This document shows, in pieces, positions 40,628 through 52,381 of a stretch of DNA of 52,602 nucleotides. The stretch is from contig JAAYKD010000090.1 in the NCBI GenBank assembly GCA_012522585.1, forward strand, positions 1 through 52,602, in the 5' to 3' direction. The notes beneath the pieces are model-generated. The model was given only the letters and a program-made list of their open reading frames with translations. It searched no databases and was not told where the DNA came from. The first letter of the stretch is position 1. Each line of letters begins with the position of its first letter. This DNA comes from Bacillota bacterium. GTDB taxonomy: Bacteria; Bacillota; JAAYKD01. Made by a program: the position numbers and the translations under genes.

Positions 40628-41932
40628 TTATTTTGTATAGACTTTAACTACAGTGTCCACTGGATCGACCAGAGTAGCTTTTGAACCCAAACGAACGAAG
40701 GAAAGATCGGGATAATTGTTGGTAATCCAGTTTTTCTCAATCAGGAGCTCACTGCCATCGACCAGCAATCTCACCTTTTCTATTTGTTTTGGTTTTAAAC
40801 CGCTCAGTGGCAGGTAGCCGATGATCTCATCGAAGACATGATAATAGAGGGCTTTTCCTTTTTGCGTGATATAACCAAACTCAGGTTTATCTAAATCGGC
40901 CGGACCGGTAGCAATCACTGATTCTTGATTGTATTTCATCCAGGCGGCTATTTCCTCGAGGATCAGGGCTGATTCCTTGGGTATTTCCCCCAGAGCATTG
41001 GGACCTACATTGACCAAAAGGTTTCCCCCTTTGCTCACCGTCTCCACCAGCTTTCTGATGATCAGTTTGCTGCTTTTAAAATTATGATCATTGCTGACAT
41101 AGCCCCAATGATCGTTTAGAGTAATACAGGATTCCCAGAGAACTCTCTCCCCCTTGATATTGAAAATACCTTTGGGAGGAATGATTTGCTCGGGACTGAC
41201 GAAATCTCCTGAGGTTAAGCCAGGCTTAGCCTCGATTAAAGAGCCAAAACCCTCACCGCTTGCTTCCAAACGATTGTTGATAATGACCTGAGGTTGTAAT
41301 TGCCTGACTTGCTCGACCAGTTCTTGACCTTTAAAGGCCTGAGCATTTAAATCATCATAGGCAAAATCGAACCAAAGAATATCCAGTTGTCCGTAATTTG
41401 AAACCAATTCAAGTACTTGCTTGTGCATATAATCCAGGTAGGTATCAAAATCGTATTGATGATCTTTGAAATCAGGATTATCTCTCATAGGATGGTGACG
41501 ATCGCCAAAATGAGGATAATGATCGTGATGCCAATCGATGATGGAATAGTAGAGACCCACTTTGATGCCAACTTCCCTAAAGGCCTCTAAGACTTCTGCT
41601 ACAGCGTCCCGACCAAAAGGTGTTTTAGTAGATTTAAAATCAGTATAGGCAGAATCAAACAAACAGAAACCGTCATGATGTTTGGCTGTAAAAACAACAT
41701 ATTGAAAACCTGCAGCTTTAGCTTTTTTAGCCCAGAGACCAGGCTCAAAATTAGCAGCTGTAAATTCCTGGAAATAAGGCCGGTAGTCTTCTTTGCTAAT
41801 CCGTTCGTTAGAACGCAACCATTCTCCCCTAGCTGGAATAGCATAGAGGCCCCAATGAATAAACAGGCCGAATCGGGCTTTTTGATACCAAGCAGTTCTG
41901 GCTTGATAAGCACTCAGGTCAAAATTCTCCAT
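40628..41932 (-). CDS. Alpha-L-fucosidase (GH29), cytoplasmic
   Basis: 434 aa, no signal peptide. GH29 motifs: WYQKARFGLFIHWGLYAIP, FTAKHHDGFCLFDSAYTDF, LDILWFDFAYDD (nucleophile Asp in WFD) and WESCITLNDHWGY. It hydrolyses alpha-L-fucosides, presumably imported fucosylated oligosaccharides; a transporter is not in the window. The C-terminal 80 residues form a beta domain. Ribosome site GAGGTG. A hairpin terminator and a possible leader peptide lie just upstream, so expression may be attenuated. Confidence 0.92.
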   Translation of the reverse strand: MENFDLSAYQARTAWYQKARFGLFIHWGLYAIPARGEWLRSNERISKEDYRPYFQEFTAANFEPGLWAKKAKAAGFQYVVFTAKHHDGFCLFDSAYTDFKSTKTPFGRDAVAEVLEAFREVGIKVGLYYSIIDWHHDHYPHFGDRHHPMRDNPDFKDHQYDFDTYLDYMHKQVLELVSNYGQLDILWFDFAYDDLNAQAFKGQELVEQVRQLQPQVIINNRLEASGEGFGSLIEAKPGLTSGDFVSPEQIIPPKGIFNIKGERVLWESCITLNDHWGYVSNDHNFKSSKLIIRKLVETVSKGGNLLVNVGPNALGEIPKESALILEEIAAWMKYNQESVIATGPADLDKPEFGYITQKGKALYYHVFDEIIGYLPLSGLKPKQIEKVRLLVDGSELLIEKNWITNNYPDLSFVRLGSKATLVDPVDTVVKVYTK

Positions 41933-44185: not shown

Positions 44186-45466
44186 TTAGTTCTTCAACAA
44201 TTTGTACATATTGCTCTTATAGGCTTCTACTCCCGGTTGATCAAAGGGATTGACACCGAGAATTTTACCGCTGAGGGCACAGGCCAACATGAAAAAGTAG
44301 GTCAAATAGCCTAGGCTGTATTCACTTAGCTCATCTAATTGGATGATCAAGTTTGCTACATTACCTTCAACATGGGCTTGTACCGTCCCTAAAAAGGCCT
44401 GATTTTGAACAAAGTTCATGGTCTTGCCCTCTAAATAGGATAAGCCATCATCGAAAAAACCAGTTGCTACATTTAAATCTGTTTTCTCGGTCTTGATATC
44501 CAAGACCGTTTCGAAAAAGATGGGGTTACCCTCCTGGACAAACTGACCTAAAGAATGGAGATCGGTGCTGTAGAGCAGGCTGACCGGCAGAAGACCCTTG
44601 CCTTCTTTACCTTCGCTCTCGGCGAAGAGCTGTTTGAACCACTCTGCCAACATTTTCAATCGAGGCTGATGGCTGACGAAAAGCTCAACAACTTTACCTT
44701 GCTGGTAAAAATAATGGCGAATGATGGCATAATTTAATGCGGCCTTGGCTGTGTTTTCAGCTCGGTCAAAATCATTCCTGGCTTGGGCTGCCCCTTTTAA
44801 GATTTTTTCAATCTGAAAACCAGCTACGGCTAAAGGCAACAAACCCACAGCTGTCAGGACCGAATAGCGCCCTCCTATATCGACAGGCACAGAGAAAGCA
44901 CTGATCTCGTTTTGCCCAGCCAGTTCTCTCAAAACTCCCTTTTCCGGGTCAGTGATTAAGAAAAGCCGTTCTAAAGCTACTGTCATACCATAGCGCTGGA
45001 CCAAGAGATTGAAAAGATATCTAAAGGCTAGGGCCGGCTCTAGAGTGGTGCCAGACTTGGAAATGACGCAAAGGCTGAAATCTTTATCCTGTAAATACTG
45101 ATTTAAACTTAGCAGGTATTCAGAACTCAGGTTATGGCCGGCAAAGACCAATTCTGTGTTTTCCTCTGATTTTTTAAAAGAAGGAGTCAGAGCATCGTAA
45201 AGGGCTTTGGCTCCCAAATAAGAGCCCCCTATGCCAATGACAACTAAAACTTTAGAATTGCTTCTGATTTGAGCCGCCGCAGCTTTTATATCTTCGATCA
45301 AGGCTTTGTGGTCCTTTAAAGGCCAATCAAACCAGCCCAGAGGTAGATTCTTGGCTGTTTTCGGGTCAAAAAGCCACTCGAGAGCTTCTATCCCTTGGCT
45401 ATCCGGACCTTGTTGCAATTTTTCTTGCAAATTACTGGGTAAATAGTCAAATTTTAAATTTAGCAT
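44186..45466 (-). CDS. pgi: Glucose-6-phosphate isomerase
   Basis: 426 aa. SIS-domain motifs: VIGIGGSYLGAKALYDAL, ISKSGTTLEPALAFR, DIGGRYSVLTAVGLLPLA, and the C-terminal GVEAYKSNMYKLL. It interconverts glucose 6-phosphate and fructose 6-phosphate. With phosphoglucomutase 5 kb upstream it covers entry into nucleotide-sugar synthesis for envelope polymers as well as glycolysis. Flanked by terminators on both sides. Confidence 0.97.
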   Translation of the reverse strand: MLNLKFDYLPSNLQEKLQQGPDSQGIEALEWLFDPKTAKNLPLGWFDWPLKDHKALIEDIKAAAAQIRSNSKVLVVIGIGGSYLGAKALYDALTPSFKKSEENTELVFAGHNLSSEYLLSLNQYLQDKDFSLCVISKSGTTLEPALAFRYLFNLLVQRYGMTVALERLFLITDPEKGVLRELAGQNEISAFSVPVDIGGRYSVLTAVGLLPLAVAGFQIEKILKGAAQARNDFDRAENTAKAALNYAIIRHYFYQQGKVVELFVSHQPRLKMLAEWFKQLFAESEGKEGKGLLPVSLLYSTDLHSLGQFVQEGNPIFFETVLDIKTEKTDLNVATGFFDDGLSYLEGKTMNFVQNQAFLGTVQAHVEGNVANLIIQLDELSEYSLGYLTYFFMLACALSGKILGVNPFDQPGVEAYKSNMYKLLKN

Positions 45467-45544: not shown

Positions 45545-46198
45545 TTACGCACCAATACCTAAAATACGGTCAACCAAGATTGAGATTTCAGCTTTGGTCA
45601 ACACACCGTTGGGCTGGAAGGTTCCATCTGGATAGCCTTTGAACAGACCTAATTCGCCTAATGCTTTGATGATGCCGCGATCGGTTGCTGTTACAGCAGA
45701 GTAATCACTAAAAGGATATTGAGAAGGAGCTGCAACTGGGTTAGATTTTACGCCTAAAGCGATTGCTAACATTCTGGCAACTTCAACACGTGTCATAGGC
45801 TCATCAATTTCTTTTGCCTCGGGAATTAAACCAACTTCTTTTGCTGCTTCTAAAGCTGCTTCTTCAGTGTCATCTTTTTGAGCAACGCCCAAAACTTTAG
45901 CAAAGATGGCTACGCCTGTGCCTGCATCTAAAGTAGCTTTTGGTTCTACATTGCCATTGGCATCGGGCTTGAGCAAGCCTTGCTCGAGTAAAACGGTGAC
46001 AGAACCTGCGAACCAATCGGTAGGCTTAACGTCTTGAACACCAGCATCGGCAAGTTCTTCTTCAATCTCAGTAACCGGCTTGTTAACACCAGGTGCTGTT
46101 TCGTCTGAGTAAACTGTACCTGTGACAGTATCAGCCAAAACTGTGAACTGTGATAAAACCAATACGGCTACCAAAAGGAAAGAAAGATATTTTCTCAT
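45545..46198 (-). CDS. Small S-layer homology (SLH) domain protein
   Basis: 217 aa with a Sec signal peptide (MRKYLSFLLVAVLVLSQFTVLA). Three SLH-like repeats: DWFAGSVTVLLEQGLLKPDANG (about 55-110), KEVGLIPEAKEIDEPMTRVEVARMLAIALG (about 115-150) and YPFSDYSAVTATDRGIIKALGELGLFKGYPDG (about 160-215, the best match). SLH domains bind pyruvylated secondary wall polymers. With no other domain it may be a wall coat protein or anchor. A strong promoter and strong ribosome site suggest high expression. Confidence 0.85.
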   Translation of the reverse strand: MRKYLSFLLVAVLVLSQFTVLADTVTGTVYSDETAPGVNKPVTEIEEELADAGVQDVKPTDWFAGSVTVLLEQGLLKPDANGNVEPKATLDAGTGVAIFAKVLGVAQKDDTEEAALEAAKEVGLIPEAKEIDEPMTRVEVARMLAIALGVKSNPVAAPSQYPFSDYSAVTATDRGIIKALGELGLFKGYPDGTFQPNGVLTKAEISILVDRILGIGA

Positions 46199-46333: not shown

Positions 46334-47701
46334 TCAGACATTATTCTTGATTGCCGCTTTCATTTCCCGATAATCGAGGCTAGATTCGACCAAACCCATC
46401 CAAGGAACCCCAATATACTTTTTGTTTTCAACAAAACGACCGGTCTCTTCATTGAGTAAGTAGAGCAGCCTGTCCCCTTCGTGTTTGAATTCATTGGACT
46501 CACGGGCTAATTTCAATAGTCTTTCAGCTTCCTCAAAGTTTTTCAAAGCCAAATTTGCTTTGCCTAAATAAAACTGAATGTGCAGATCGGCAGCCAGACT
46601 GAAATTTTCAGCCAGCTCAAGGCTTTCTGTCAAAACTTCCCGGCCTTCTTCTACTCTTGAATCCAAGAGATATTCAATACCTAAAGCGCTGCTGGCTCTG
46701 GCTAAATATCTGCCGGCCATTTTTTTATCATCGGCCAGCTCATATAGAGCCTTAGCCTGCCAATAAGCTTCTTCCTTTTCTCCTAAATCGAAGAGATGGA
46801 GCAGATACTGTTCCAGATATTGTGGGTTTTCAGGCTCTAATTCTAGAGCTTTCTCAATGGTTTCCTGACGTTTTTCCAGCCAGTAATTCTTATCCTTCTC
46901 TTCTCGGCTGGTCTTGATCATCCAAACATAAACTTCGCCTAAGCCATCGTAGAGTTCAGCCGATTCGGGTTTGAGCTCAATTGCCTTCAAATACAATTCA
47001 ATGGCCAAATCTACCTGACGCTTTTTATAAGCCTCAGCTGCATCCTTAGCATACTTTGCACCCAAATCCAGCAGGCCTTCAGTCTTCTCCTGATCAACTG
47101 CACCACTATCCACTAACTTTTCTAAAAGAATTTTAGCTTCCCCCTTTAAAGAGGTAAAGAGACTCTGATAGGAAATAGCTACGCAATGGTCCCGCAAGAA
47201 TTTATCTCCTACTGTCTCAGCATAAGCTTGGTCGATTAGAGCTATTTCTTCTGCTTTAATTTTAGCATCGGCCCAATAAAAATCCCCTTTGCTATCATCA
47301 TAACCTAAAGAACGGAGCACAAAGGTAAGAAAATGGGCTTCCGTAGTCTCGTCAGTGGAGCCAAATTCCTTATCGCTATAGCCTAAAGTCAGGCCATTGT
47401 GATAGGCGAAAGCTACATAATTTTTGCCCCAATTGGGCACATCTTCAAATGGTAAAGATAAATCGTTCTTTAAAGCTTCCTCTTCCAGACCGAGAAGACG
47501 GACTAACATGACCAGAGCTTCCAGTCTTGTGGGAGGCCGCTCCAGCTCAAAACCTAGATCGGTCCCTTTGAAAAGCCCTAATTCCCTTAAGACATTGGCC
47601 TCATTTTCGTAATGGATTTTGACATTGCTGCCCAGGACTGCGGAAGAAAATAAAAGACTTGCCAGTAAAATAGTAACGATCAGCCTCTGCGTAGTTTTCA
47701 T
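46334..47701 (-). CDS. Secreted SLH-TPR protein
   Basis: 455 aa. Signal peptide (about 1-24), SLH-like region (about 35-160: LRELGLFKG, PTRLEALVMLVRLLGL, PFEDVPNWGKNYVAFAYHNGLTLGYSD), a spacer, then TPR repeats (about 210-420). The C-terminal 220 residues resemble the C-terminal half of the O-antigen-ligase-type protein encoded just upstream, down to the ending DRLLYLLNEETG and WMGLVES (434-440). It is probably anchored to the wall polymer with the TPR domain exposed outside the membrane. A partner role with the ligase is inferred. Confidence 0.85.
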   Translation of the reverse strand: MKTTQRLIVTILLASLLFSSAVLGSNVKIHYENEANVLRELGLFKGTDLGFELERPPTRLEALVMLVRLLGLEEEALKNDLSLPFEDVPNWGKNYVAFAYHNGLTLGYSDKEFGSTDETTEAHFLTFVLRSLGYDDSKGDFYWADAKIKAEEIALIDQAYAETVGDKFLRDHCVAISYQSLFTSLKGEAKILLEKLVDSGAVDQEKTEGLLDLGAKYAKDAAEAYKKRQVDLAIELYLKAIELKPESAELYDGLGEVYVWMIKTSREEKDKNYWLEKRQETIEKALELEPENPQYLEQYLLHLFDLGEKEEAYWQAKALYELADDKKMAGRYLARASSALGIEYLLDSRVEEGREVLTESLELAENFSLAADLHIQFYLGKANLALKNFEEAERLLKLARESNEFKHEGDRLLYLLNEETGRFVENKKYIGVPWMGLVESSLDYREMKAAIKNNV

Positions 47702-47747
47702 TGATTCACCTCATAATAATTGTTTAACTTAATTAAAAGATACTCTA

Positions 47748-47780
47748 TAAAAGCAAGGAAAGCTAAACATTTTGCTTTCC
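47748..47780 (-). terminator. Hairpin after the ligase-TPR gene
   Basis: GGAAAGC/GCTTTCC stem (47757-47763 with 47774-47780), 10-nt loop, followed on the minus strand by TTGCTTTTAT. It is probably a partial terminator between the two TPR genes. Confidence 0.6.
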
Positions 47781-47784
47781 AGCC

Positions 47785-50058
47785 CTATTCAATGGGAAAA
47801 ACAGCCTTTTCATTGAGGCTCTTCAGAGTGCGATAAAGAGGAGTGGATTCTACCAAACCCATCCAGGCCAAGCCTTGGAATTTGTTGTTTTCCTCTTCCC
47901 TACCTTTGAGCTGATTGATCAAATATAACATTCTGTCAGCATCCATGCGCAAATTCAGGGAATGAGCAGCTGCTTCTGTCAAGAGAGCTTCAGCTGTATC
48001 CAATTTACCCAAAGCTAGAGCAGCCTGGCCGGCATAAAATATTATTGTTTTATTGGCTTCTAAATCTTCTCTTTCTATTAATTCAAGAGCTGCCAAAAAA
48101 CTCTCCTGAGCTTTTTTGTAATCTTCGTTTTTAACTTGAGCAAAAGCTGCTTCTACATAGCTTTTAGCTAATACTTCAAAATTACTCTTGACCAGCGGTT
48201 GCATTAAAACCAAATACTCCGCTCTTTCCTTAGCTTCCAGAGGCATATTAGCGCTGGAATAGACCTTAGCAGCTATCCGATTATAATAAGGATAATGAGG
48301 GTCTAGCTTTAAAGAACGCTCTGCTTGGACTACGGCCTTTTGTAGCCATTCTTGTTTTTCTGCTTCCAAGCGGCTAATATTGGCCATCCAAGTATATAAA
48401 TCGGCCAACTCAGCACGAGGCCCAGCGTGTAAGGGGTCGAGCCTGACTGCCTTTTCATAGGCCGTGATAGCCTGAACCGCTACAATCTGCTTTTTAGCCT
48501 TGGAGCCAACCTCGATTTGATTGGCGGCTAAGCTGAAAGGAACGCTGAAGAGGAAGGTCAACAAAACAACGGAAAAGGTTAAGATTTGCCACTGCTTTTT
48601 AAAATTAAAGGCTTCTCGGTTTAAATATTTATTTTTAGGGCCAAAAATCGAAGCCACTGCTGTTAAAGCAAAAAGTATATAGCCCATAGAACTGTAGCTC
48701 AAGTTAAAATCGATGGCTGAATGAGCACTCAAAGCCAAAAGAGAACAGAATAAAACTGCTGCCACGGTCTTTTTGTTTAGTTCCACTTCCCTTAAACGTC
48801 CGTAAAAATAATAGAACAGACCAAAAACAATGGTGCCAATAAAGCCTAAAATACCAAAGATACCAGCTTCGACGAAGACCTGCAGGTAGTGGTTGTGAAC
48901 TAAACGAGCGGCATAATAAACATTTTGCACACTCTGGTAGAGTGAAGCGAAACCGTAGCCACCATAGCCAATCAAAGGCCTTTTCTTGATTAAAGTCCAG
49001 GCTTCTCGAAAGAATTCGAAACGCATGACGACACTTTTAGTCTCAAGATTGATATCGTGCATCCGATCTAAGACGCCCTTGGGAACATTCAATTCGACAA
49101 AACGATTGATAGCTGTAATGATTACCTCGCCTTTTACTCCAGCGACGACGACTAAGATTATTCCCAATAGGAAGATCAGAGCCAGTTCTGTTCTCCTTCG
49201 GCGCTGAATCAGTCGCTGCAAATCGAAAAGGAAGAATAAAACCCCACTGAGTGCAGCCCCAAAGAGGAGTTGCAAGGAAGCAGGAGCCAAATCACTGTTG
49301 AAAGCCGCTGCGTTAAAGGGTTTCATTGTGATAATCATGGGCAAAGACATTGCTAAGATGGCAAGAAACCCCTTGAGTTTTGTGCCCAAAGGCATGACGA
49401 TTAAAAATATCAAGAAGATCATTGGTGGAAAGAGTAAGAAAACTCCTCTGGAGCTGGTAAAAAACAAAGCCATTAAAAGCACATGACCCAAAGCCGCTGC
49501 GCCAACCTTATAATAGGTCTTATTTTCCACTACCATGAAGTAGATCAGCATCAACAATATTAATAGGAAGTAAACAGCAGCTGTATTGGCATATTGTAGG
49601 GTTGAACCTATGCGATTTCCATTTATAGTGTCTTTCAAACCGGTAAAGACCTTTGTATACCCTGCCAATCCTAAAAAGGCGGCTAGGGAGCCTCCGAAAA
49701 TCAGGGGTAAAAAGAAAAACTTGACTAATTCCTGCTTTTTGTCATGAAAATAATCGCTTAAAACAAAAGCTATCAACATATAAACTATCAACTGCATGAC
49801 CATTTCAATGTTGCCTCTGGGATTTGCCGCCTTTGCAAAAGCTAAAAGATAAGCTAATAGCATAATTAAAGAGCTAAAAAATACTCCACCTGGTATTCTA
49901 AATTTTTCGCCTAAACGATATTTACTTATAAGATAAGCCCCACCCAAAAAGCTCAGGGCTGCAAAGGAAAGATACATTTCAAAAGGAAAAAACAATCCTC
50001 TAAATAAAGGGCTTATTGAAATGATTAAAACCATAAAAAAAACTAAATATTTTTTCAC
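47785..50058 (-). CDS. O-antigen ligase family membrane protein with C-terminal TPR domain
   Basis: 757 aa. Residues 1 to about 510 contain some 11-13 membrane helices with the Wzy/WaaL-type signature near RLVHNHYLQVFVEAGIFG. Residues 513-757 form a TPR domain outside the last helix, ending DRMLYLINQLKG and WMGLVES (732-738). Family members polymerise or ligate surface polysaccharide from undecaprenyl carriers; here the likely product is a wall polysaccharide. GTG start with GGGAGG, partly inside a small hairpin. The next gene encodes a secreted SLH protein with a related TPR domain. Confidence 0.87.
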   Translation of the reverse strand: MKKYLVFFMVLIISISPLFRGLFFPFEMYLSFAALSFLGGAYLISKYRLGEKFRIPGGVFFSSLIMLLAYLLAFAKAANPRGNIEMVMQLIVYMLIAFVLSDYFHDKKQELVKFFFLPLIFGGSLAAFLGLAGYTKVFTGLKDTINGNRIGSTLQYANTAAVYFLLILLMLIYFMVVENKTYYKVGAAALGHVLLMALFFTSSRGVFLLFPPMIFLIFLIVMPLGTKLKGFLAILAMSLPMIITMKPFNAAAFNSDLAPASLQLLFGAALSGVLFFLFDLQRLIQRRRRTELALIFLLGIILVVVAGVKGEVIITAINRFVELNVPKGVLDRMHDINLETKSVVMRFEFFREAWTLIKKRPLIGYGGYGFASLYQSVQNVYYAARLVHNHYLQVFVEAGIFGILGFIGTIVFGLFYYFYGRLREVELNKKTVAAVLFCSLLALSAHSAIDFNLSYSSMGYILFALTAVASIFGPKNKYLNREAFNFKKQWQILTFSVVLLTFLFSVPFSLAANQIEVGSKAKKQIVAVQAITAYEKAVRLDPLHAGPRAELADLYTWMANISRLEAEKQEWLQKAVVQAERSLKLDPHYPYYNRIAAKVYSSANMPLEAKERAEYLVLMQPLVKSNFEVLAKSYVEAAFAQVKNEDYKKAQESFLAALELIEREDLEANKTIIFYAGQAALALGKLDTAEALLTEAAAHSLNLRMDADRMLYLINQLKGREEENNKFQGLAWMGLVESTPLYRTLKSLNEKAVFPIE

Positions 50059-50062
50059 TTTT

Positions 50063-50108
50063 AAGCCTCCCTGGCTTCATAGTCTTTTATAGCCGAAAAA
50101 CAGCTATA
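50063..50108 (-). promoter_or_regulatory. Two hairpins at the ribosome site of the ligase gene
   Basis: On the minus strand TATAGC/GCTATA (loop 9 nt) is followed by AAGCC/GGCTT with loop AGGGA. The second stem partly overlaps the ribosome site GGGAGG, which could limit translation from the GTG at 50058. Confidence 0.4.
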
Positions 50109-50584
50109 TTCTTTTAATAATTCTCTGCTTTACCTATTGTCTCCTGCCCAAATTTAAATTAATTATTTAATTTATCCTATTATTTACAAAAGCTAATTAA
50201 GCAAAGGCGGAAAGGATTAAATCTTCTGCTTTTTGAAAATCTACCATATGAGAAACTATAGGATTCCAATCTAAACAAAAGCTAATGATTCTAAAGCAAA
50301 TTGAATTAAGTTCAGGCTTTAAGAAAATCAGTTAACGAATAAACATTGGATTTTAATTTTCATAAAAGCGGATTATCCCCAAGCTCAAATGTTGGAATCT
50401 GGTCACTTGTCAAAGCTTTCAGATAAATAAAAATTGAGTCCTACGTTGATTTGCATATTCATTGAATTCTCAAAACTAGAATACCTTAAATTCTAAAAGC
50501 AGATTTGTGAACGAGCAAAATTGACAAGAAAACCGAACCTTAGCCCGACAGCGAAATCACTTGACGGCCTTTACGGTTAAATCT

Positions 50585-50616
50585 AAAGGGCAAAGATTGC
50601 GTCTTCTTCGCCCTTT
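50585..50616 (-). terminator. Possible terminator after pgcA
   Basis: AAAGGGC/GCCCTTT stem with an inner AAGA/TCTT pairing, 23 bp beyond the pgcA stop. The U-tail is poor on the minus strand (TAGATTTAA) and better on the plus strand, so its direction is uncertain. Confidence 0.45.
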
Positions 50617-50638
50617 TCTATGGTTTTATTTATACTTT

Positions 50639-52381
50639 TTAAAAGCTTGCTTCAATTTTAACCAAGGCATCCTGCATCAGGGATTTTAGGAGCAATTCAG
50701 CTTTTTCTTCGCTTTTTTCCTTAACACCTATGTAAATCTTCAGTTTTGGCTCAGTTCCAGAAGGTCTGACTGCTATCCATGCCTCATTTTCCAAAAAGAA
50801 TTTGAGCACATTTTCATTGGGAAGATCAATTTTATCGTCTGTTTTCTGTAAAGACGAAACATTGACATATACTTGCCCCTCTAGGATATCCTCAATTCTT
50901 TCCACTTTTACTCCGGCGAATTCCACTGGAAGTTCAGCCCGCAAATCCACCATGGCTTTTTTGATCTTGGCTAAACCTTCTATACCTTCCAAGGTTAAAG
51001 ATTTTGTTTCGTCTAAATAATATCCATAATCTTCATAGATTTTATAGAGAAGATCATAAAGGCTCATACCTTGACTCTCGTAAAAAGCTGCCATTTCAGC
51101 CACCAGCATGGCAGTAACCACACCATCTTTGTCTCGGGCGTGAGTCCCTACTAAATAGCCATAACTCTCTTCATAACCCAATAAAAACTCATACTCTTTA
51201 GTCGATTCAAATTCTTTGATTTTTTCACCCATGTACTTAAAACCGGTAAGGGTCTTGATATTTTTCACATTTAAACTTGCCGCTATTTCCGCTCCTAAAT
51301 TGGCCGTCACGATTGTAGTGATTAAAAGGCCATTTTCGGGCAAGCGATTTAAATCCTTCAATCCATTGAGAAAATAATAGGTAAGGAGAAAACCTGTTTG
51401 GTTTCCGGTCAGAAGTAAATACTCGCCATTTCTATCAGGAATCATCACCCCTACCCTATCACTATCAGGGTCAGTGGCTAAAATTAACTTGGCCTTGACT
51501 TGTTTAGCCAGATCTAGAGCTAAATCAAAGGCTCTAGGATCTTCAGGATTGGGTGAAACTACGGTGGGAAATTCCGAATCAGGCTCTGCTTGCTCTTTGA
51601 CCAAATGAATATTGTTAAAGCCCAATCTCTGGAGCATGGTGCTCACAGGTATTTCACCGGTTCCATGTAAGGGCGTATAGACTAAAGGATAATCGGCTGC
51701 AATTTCCGCAATTTCCTTACTATATAGGGATTGTTTGAAGATAATATCGTAATAAGCCTGGTCCACATGGATGCCGGGATGGACAATCAAGCCCTGCTCT
51801 TTAGCTTTAGCAAGATCGTAAGAGGGCAAATCGTATGCTGTGATGGCTTCGATGGCTTTGGTGATGGCATCGGCTTGTTCGTTAGCTATCTGGGCCCCAT
51901 CCTGCCAAAAAACCTTGTATCCGTTGTATTGGGCTGGATTATGACTGGCTGTAACCATGATGCCGGCAATAGCCTTAAAATGCCTAACAGAAAAGGATAA
52001 TTGAGGTACAGGCCGCAATTTTTCATAGAGATAGACCTTAATACCTTGGCCTGCTAAAACAGAAGCTGCTTCTTGGGCAAACTCAGGTGAAAAACGACGA
52101 TTGTCGAAAGCAATGACCACTCCTTGGGCTTTAGCCTCTTCACCTAAGGAAACAATATAATTAGCCAAGCCTAAAGTGGCTCGACGCACCACATAGGTGT
52201 TCATTCTGTTAGTTCCTACACCTAAAATGCCTCGTAAGCCTGCTGTACCAAAGCTCAATCCTTTATAAAAGCGTTCTTCGATCTCTTGACTATCCTGAGC
52301 GATAGCTTTTAACTCTGCTTTCTCTGCTTCAGTTAAAAATTCACCTTGGAGCCATTGTAAATAAACATCTTTTGCCACCAT
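50639..52381 (-). CDS. pgcA: Alpha-phosphoglucomutase/phosphomannomutase
   Basis: 580 aa, the length of Bacillus PgcA. Motifs: substrate loop FGTAGLRGILGVGTNRMN, catalytic Ser in VTASHNPAQYNGYK, metal loop ATDPDSDRVGV, sugar loop GYEESYGYL, and phosphate loop RPSGTEPKLKIYI. It interconverts glucose 1- and 6-phosphate and feeds UDP-glucose for envelope glycans. ATG with GGGAGG; promoter 29 nt upstream. pgi and polysaccharide/SLH genes follow. Confidence 0.95.
   Translation of the reverse strand: MVAKDVYLQWLQGEFLTEAEKAELKAIAQDSQEIEERFYKGLSFGTAGLRGILGVGTNRMNTYVVRRATLGLANYIVSLGEEAKAQGVVIAFDNRRFSPEFAQEAASVLAGQGIKVYLYEKLRPVPQLSFSVRHFKAIAGIMVTASHNPAQYNGYKVFWQDGAQIANEQADAITKAIEAITAYDLPSYDLAKAKEQGLIVHPGIHVDQAYYDIIFKQSLYSKEIAEIAADYPLVYTPLHGTGEIPVSTMLQRLGFNNIHLVKEQAEPDSEFPTVVSPNPEDPRAFDLALDLAKQVKAKLILATDPDSDRVGVMIPDRNGEYLLLTGNQTGFLLTYYFLNGLKDLNRLPENGLLITTIVTANLGAEIAASLNVKNIKTLTGFKYMGEKIKEFESTKEYEFLLGYEESYGYLVGTHARDKDGVVTAMLVAEMAAFYESQGMSLYDLLYKIYEDYGYYLDETKSLTLEGIEGLAKIKKAMVDLRAELPVEFAGVKVERIEDILEGQVYVNVSSLQKTDDKIDLPNENVLKFFLENEAWIAVRPSGTEPKLKIYIGVKEKSEEKAELLLKSLMQDALVKIEASF

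Follow-up and report, generated by a model that had tools for sequence, protein, structure and literature searches.

In Paenibacillus alvei the predicted S-layer O-oligosaccharyltransferase WsfB consists of a Wzy_C domain and C-terminal TPR repeats, while WsaB of Geobacillus stearothermophilus lacks TPR and is adjoined by a separate TPR protein, WsaA (168 aa), which has been suggested to complement it (PMC2943079). Two other members of the Wzy/WaaL clan, WpaA and WpaB, affect S-layer assembly in Bacillus anthracis and have been proposed to polymerise and ligate the wall polymer, an activity that is predicted (PMC6030368).

We report on a locus in a 52,602 nucleotide stretch of DNA from a Bacillota bacterium (contig JAAYKD010000090.1; the whole stretch is referred to as the window) where a Wzy_C ligase gene is followed by a gene for an SLH protein. 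As in WsfB, the Wzy_C domain is combined with C-terminal TPR, and both hosts have SLH-anchored surface proteins. The locus differs from WsfB in that the adjacent SLH protein bears a paralogue of the TPR module and in that the window ORFs scanned did not include a surrounding S-layer glycan cluster. It resembles WsaB/WsaA in that a Wzy_C transferase is accompanied by a second, TPR-containing protein encoded beside it, but here the transferase has TPR of its own, and the description of WsaA is that of a TPR protein rather than an SLH protein. WpaA and WpaB are likewise Wzy/WaaL-clan membrane proteins in a bacterium having SLH-anchored S-layer proteins; they are however filed under PF13425, and the present ligase under PF04932.

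Gene order and parts of the locus

The features are listed in order of transcription.

50639-52381, minus strand: phosphoglucomutase (Pgm) gene, first in transcription order
50059-50638: gap of 580 bp between the Pgm and ligase genes, without any ORF of at least 80 aa and without Rfam match
47785..50058, minus strand: Wzy_C ligase/transferase with C-terminal TPR module (ORF; 757 aa, GTG start)
48838..49245, minus strand: Wzy_C domain of the ligase, residues 272-407 (Pfam E=2e-15)
48508..48591, minus strand: last hydrophobic helix of the ligase before the module, residues 490-517 (hydropathy scan)
47818..48537, minus strand: C-terminal TPR module, ligase copy, residues 508-747 (BLASTP, motifs, AF2 pLDDT 88.1)
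47845..47865, minus strand: WMGLVES tail segment, ligase copy (pattern match)
47702..47784, minus strand: spacer between the ligase and SLH-TPR genes (83 bp; hairpin and ribosome site)
46334..47701, minus strand: SLH-TPR protein, predicted secreted (ORF; 455 aa; Pfam SLH 22.4 bits, cut-off 20.8; TPR_11 7.8e-8)
47087..47701, minus strand: signal peptide and SLH anchor cassette of the SLH-TPR protein, residues ~1-205 (cassette homologues in many genomes)
46355..47071, minus strand: C-terminal TPR module, SLH copy, residues 211-449 (BLASTP E=2e-22; AF2 pLDDT 90.5, 13 helices)
46382..46402, minus strand: WMGLVES tail segment, SLH copy (pattern match; tail z=21)
45545..46198, minus strand: small second SLH protein, 217 aa, without TPR (Pfam SLH 5.8e-15), 3' of the SLH-TPR gene
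44186-45466, minus strand: phosphoglucose isomerase (Pgi) gene, after the small SLH gene

The spacer (47702-47784) holds a GGAAAGC/GCTTTCC hairpin plus a T-rich run, and an AGGTGA-type ribosome site 5' of the SLH-TPR gene. The hairpin, which was missed by the terminator scan because of its 10-nt loop, is together with the T-rich run a possible weak terminator, and it may limit co-transcription of the two genes. A promoter-like TTGACT-17-TATAAT sequence (46252-46224; score 11/12) is present 5' of the small SLH gene, which may be transcribed from its own promoter; sites of the TTGACT/TATAAT type are not more common in the stretch than in shuffled sequences. Rfam gave zero matches across the whole window. 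No glycosyltransferase was present among the window ORFs scanned, the pair being flanked by Pgm and Pgi, and an alpha-L-fucosidase gene (PF01120, E=5e-84) is located at 40628-41932 amid housekeeping genes.

Homology and distribution of the two C-terminal modules

A preliminary description of this DNA had the C-termini of the SLH protein and the ligase aligning along their length, and this was borne out by BLASTP: residues 211-449 of the SLH-TPR protein match residues 508-747 of the ligase with 33% identity over 241 aa, 3 gaps and E=2e-22. All the motifs that it listed are present in both copies, i.e. LYTWM/VYVWM, AL-L-P repeats, FY-G-A, DRLLYLLN/DRMLYLIN and WMGLVES, the last of which had been given as the ending of the proteins and is in fact followed by 15-19 further residues in both. 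The whole-module local score is 277 compared to a shuffled mean of 43 (sd 7.4; z=32), and the tail alone (47/51 aa) scores 114 against a shuffled mean of 21 (sd 4.4; z=21), the maximum of 1000 shuffles being 41. A set of 62 further ligase ORFs from relatives, compared by their C-termini, reached a maximum of 132 with the SLH copy of the module and 178 with the ligase copy, and 44 with either tail. The tail is outside the Pfam TPR matches. Identity in the tail (23/47) is higher than in the body (57/198; Fisher p=0.008), and this conservation suggests that the tail is under constraint. Identical residues have the same codon in 41 cases with 34 expected from codon usage (11 and 10, respectively, in the tail); recent gene conversion between the copies was rejected because the agreement is near that expectation. 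On the basis of the scores against shuffles and the 62 ligases, the two modules are diverged homologues beyond generic TPR, which is in keeping with the earlier proposal of one TPR scaffold on the enzyme and on the anchor.

AF2 models, each built with the other copy as the sole aligned sequence, gave a pLDDT of 90.5 and 13 helices for the SLH copy and 88.1 for the ligase copy, in which the order of the helices matches; around the tail the ligase-copy model is less sure (ten-residue block means of 84, 61 and 87). Consensus TPR proteins were the best Foldseek matches of both models in the PDB, and both modules are thus predicted to have the paired-helix TPR fold.

In its own genome the module is matched at E≤1 only by the SLH-TPR and ligase genes. 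It is absent from the other three genomes of the class (four genomes), two of which have a homologous ligase without it. Two scans of named-species genome contigs, seeded by short patterns and in the second scan by seeds excluding the tail, gave no relatives of the module. Comparing other ligases with their own neighbours for module likeness returned only ligase-ligase pairs, and none of the SLH proteins beside other ligases scanned by Pfam has TPR. The DNA pattern for WMGLVES is present in one of 399 genomes of the phylum, i.e. this one, at exactly these two genes, and no other gene pair carries the tail. The suggestion that WMGLVES is a new motif thus holds insofar as it is absent from unrelated proteins, but it is confined to two genes and was rejected as a general tail motif. 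The module pair has consequently been seen in one genome only.

The ligase, the SLH anchor and their genome setting

The ligase matches Wzy_C (PF04932) over residues 272-407 with 57.3 bits (curated cut-off 31.7), and a hydropathy scan gave 11 hydrophobic segments, i.e. a multi-spanning protein as required for Wzy_C. Its TPR matches come after the last of these segments, and a K/R-rich stretch is present just before the last helix (490-517), which together with this late helix suggests that the module is outside the membrane; the signal peptide of the SLH-TPR protein and the late transmembrane helix of the ligase fit with both modules being located there. It is the sole PF04932 match of its genome. 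Homologues were found in 83 of 200 phylum genomes (E≤1e-10), many of the alignments reaching the C-terminal region. The ligase itself is not unusual in type, C-terminally extended Wzy_C ligases being common in the phylum. The score for the exosortase-associated O-ligase model TIGR03097 was 40 bits versus a cut-off of 188, and PF13425, a model possibly not in the Pfam set used, was not listed for the ligase at E≤1. In another genome of the same family (G001) the only Wzy_C protein, at L137:7849-9258, is without the TPR extension, and its gene adjoins type IV pilus-like genes (pilin-like and GspF-like, by eye), which suggests a pilin glycosyltransferase.

In the SLH-TPR protein, Pfam places SLH at residues 84-122 (22.4 bits versus 20.8) and TPR from residue 225 onwards. 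Its hydrophobic N-terminus is by eye a signal peptide, and it therefore qualifies as an SLH-anchored protein; just one SLH domain passes the Pfam cut-off, and the cassette of ~205 aa is long enough for three. In 36 of 399 phylum genomes P0001 was matched at E≤1e-10, with cassettes 37-46% identical in the better matches. The N-terminal ~200 residues of these SLH proteins are alike whereas their C-termini differ from the TPR module, none matching it at E≤1; cassette carriers across the phylum (L100-L117) have unrelated C-termini, among them (by eye) HtrA/protease-, transglutaminase-, metallo-beta-lactamase- and clostripain-like ones. The first half of the SLH-TPR protein is, judging from these alignments, a widespread and swappable SLH anchor cassette, and the protein looks like a cassette that took up an old copy of the module of the ligase. 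That the module was originally that of the ligase is suggested because ligases with C-terminal extensions are common and the SLH cassette is promiscuous.

Of the 63 phylum ligases sampled, 15 have an SLH gene no more than 3 kb away, where ~4% would be expected from SLH density, in a sample that is phylogenetically clustered and not independent and with a rough null estimate. The SLH proteins scanned beside other ligases have fn3, invasin-like or subtilase domains, or no other named domain, and subtilase-SLH proteins adjoin Wzy_C ligases in three genomes (L070:11012-15313, L094:12532-15804 and L093:10094-13423). LpxC is absent from all four class genomes (G000-G003; G000 is 94% complete) while control genomes were positive, and LPS ligation is therefore unlikely; a WaaL-type LPS O-antigen ligase was rejected as the lipid A pathway lacks this enzyme. 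Elsewhere, not near the ligase/SLH-TPR pair, the genome encodes a CsaB equivalog (TIGR03609, 305 bits versus a cut-off of 213) with a TagA-family gene after it, and an SLH-binding wall polymer is likely because CsaB is present. In two other genomes (L040 and L089), csaB (TIGR03609), SLH protein genes and a Wzy_C-type ligase gene are close together.

Possible functions of the paired modules

Our preferred reading, to which we assign a probability of roughly 0.4, is that of a WsfB-like transferase/ligase whose dedicated partner or acceptor is anchored in the wall, the modules being old paralogues. A duplicate of the TPR module of the ligase would have been fused to the swappable wall-anchor cassette. 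The ligase would be located in the cytoplasmic membrane, its TPR facing outwards, and would use a lipid-linked glycan either for O-oligosaccharyl transfer to a surface protein or for ligation onto a surface polymer; its external TPR would recruit the partner, and the wall-held SLH-TPR protein would be that partner or acceptor, the same module binding either the ligase or the same client. By analogy with WsfB and WsaB (PMC2943079), the most likely role of the ligase is that of a surface glycan transferase. Also speaking for this reading are the homology beyond TPR, the confinement of the module to the pair, the matching helix order of the two AF2 models, the excess of SLH genes near sampled ligases, the absence of LpxC, the presence of CsaB and the stronger conservation of the tail. 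Against this, the Wzy_C domain alone cannot separate transferase, ligase and polymerase, a glycosyltransferase cluster was not seen beside the pair, the partner being in one genome only deprives it of support from co-inheritance, the spacer hairpin may limit co-transcription, and a single SLH domain of the partner is above the Pfam cut-off.

Less probable is that the ligase, like WpaA/WpaB, is a polymerase or ligase of the SLH-bound secondary cell wall polymer with the SLH-TPR protein serving as holder or spacer of the growing polymer at the docking sites. This is near the idea in the preliminary description that the pair places a polymer where SLH proteins dock, which is possible, although protein O-glycosylation by WsfB-type transferases would be a closer precedent. 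Its being the only PF04932 protein of the genome, CsaB and the TagA-like enzyme elsewhere in that genome, the grouping of csaB with SLH and Wzy_C-type ligase genes in two others and the effect of WpaA/WpaB on S-layer assembly in B. anthracis (PMC6030368) all point this way, but PF13425, to which WpaA/WpaB belong, was not listed at E≤1, csaB is not near the pair, and the published precedent that does carry TPR is the O-oligosaccharyltransferase WsfB.

It is slightly less likely still that tandem duplication and domain shuffling left the shared module behind as a relic, the proteins now working independently and the second copy being a generic surface-protein TPR. TPR modules readily duplicate, the pair is confined to one genome, identity is down to 33% and codon agreement is near expectation (41 versus 34), all of which would agree with a relic; the tail beyond the TPR body is however more conserved than the body, the two genes have stayed side by side, and SLH genes next to ligases recur in the phylum. 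That generic TPR consensus alone would explain the likeness, without specific common ancestry, is very improbable and was rejected, for although the Pfam families called on the two C-termini are all generic TPR ones, the own-genome search gave just two matches, the module score is far above those of all 62 other ligases and the tail, outside the Pfam TPR matches, reaches z=21 alone.

Within the preferred reading of a WsfB-like enzyme with a wall-anchored partner, a more speculative and rather improbable extension is that transferase and acceptor recognise each other via their paralogous TPR modules, with the WMGLVES tail as a C-terminal lock, i.e. that domain duplication produced a self-matching pair. 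To our knowledge, the way in which bacterial Wzy_C-TPR O-glycosyltransferases choose their surface-protein targets has yet to be settled, and what their TPR region does is conjectural. The same module on a ligase and on its wall-anchored neighbour would provide a direct two-protein test of whether the module recruits the acceptor.
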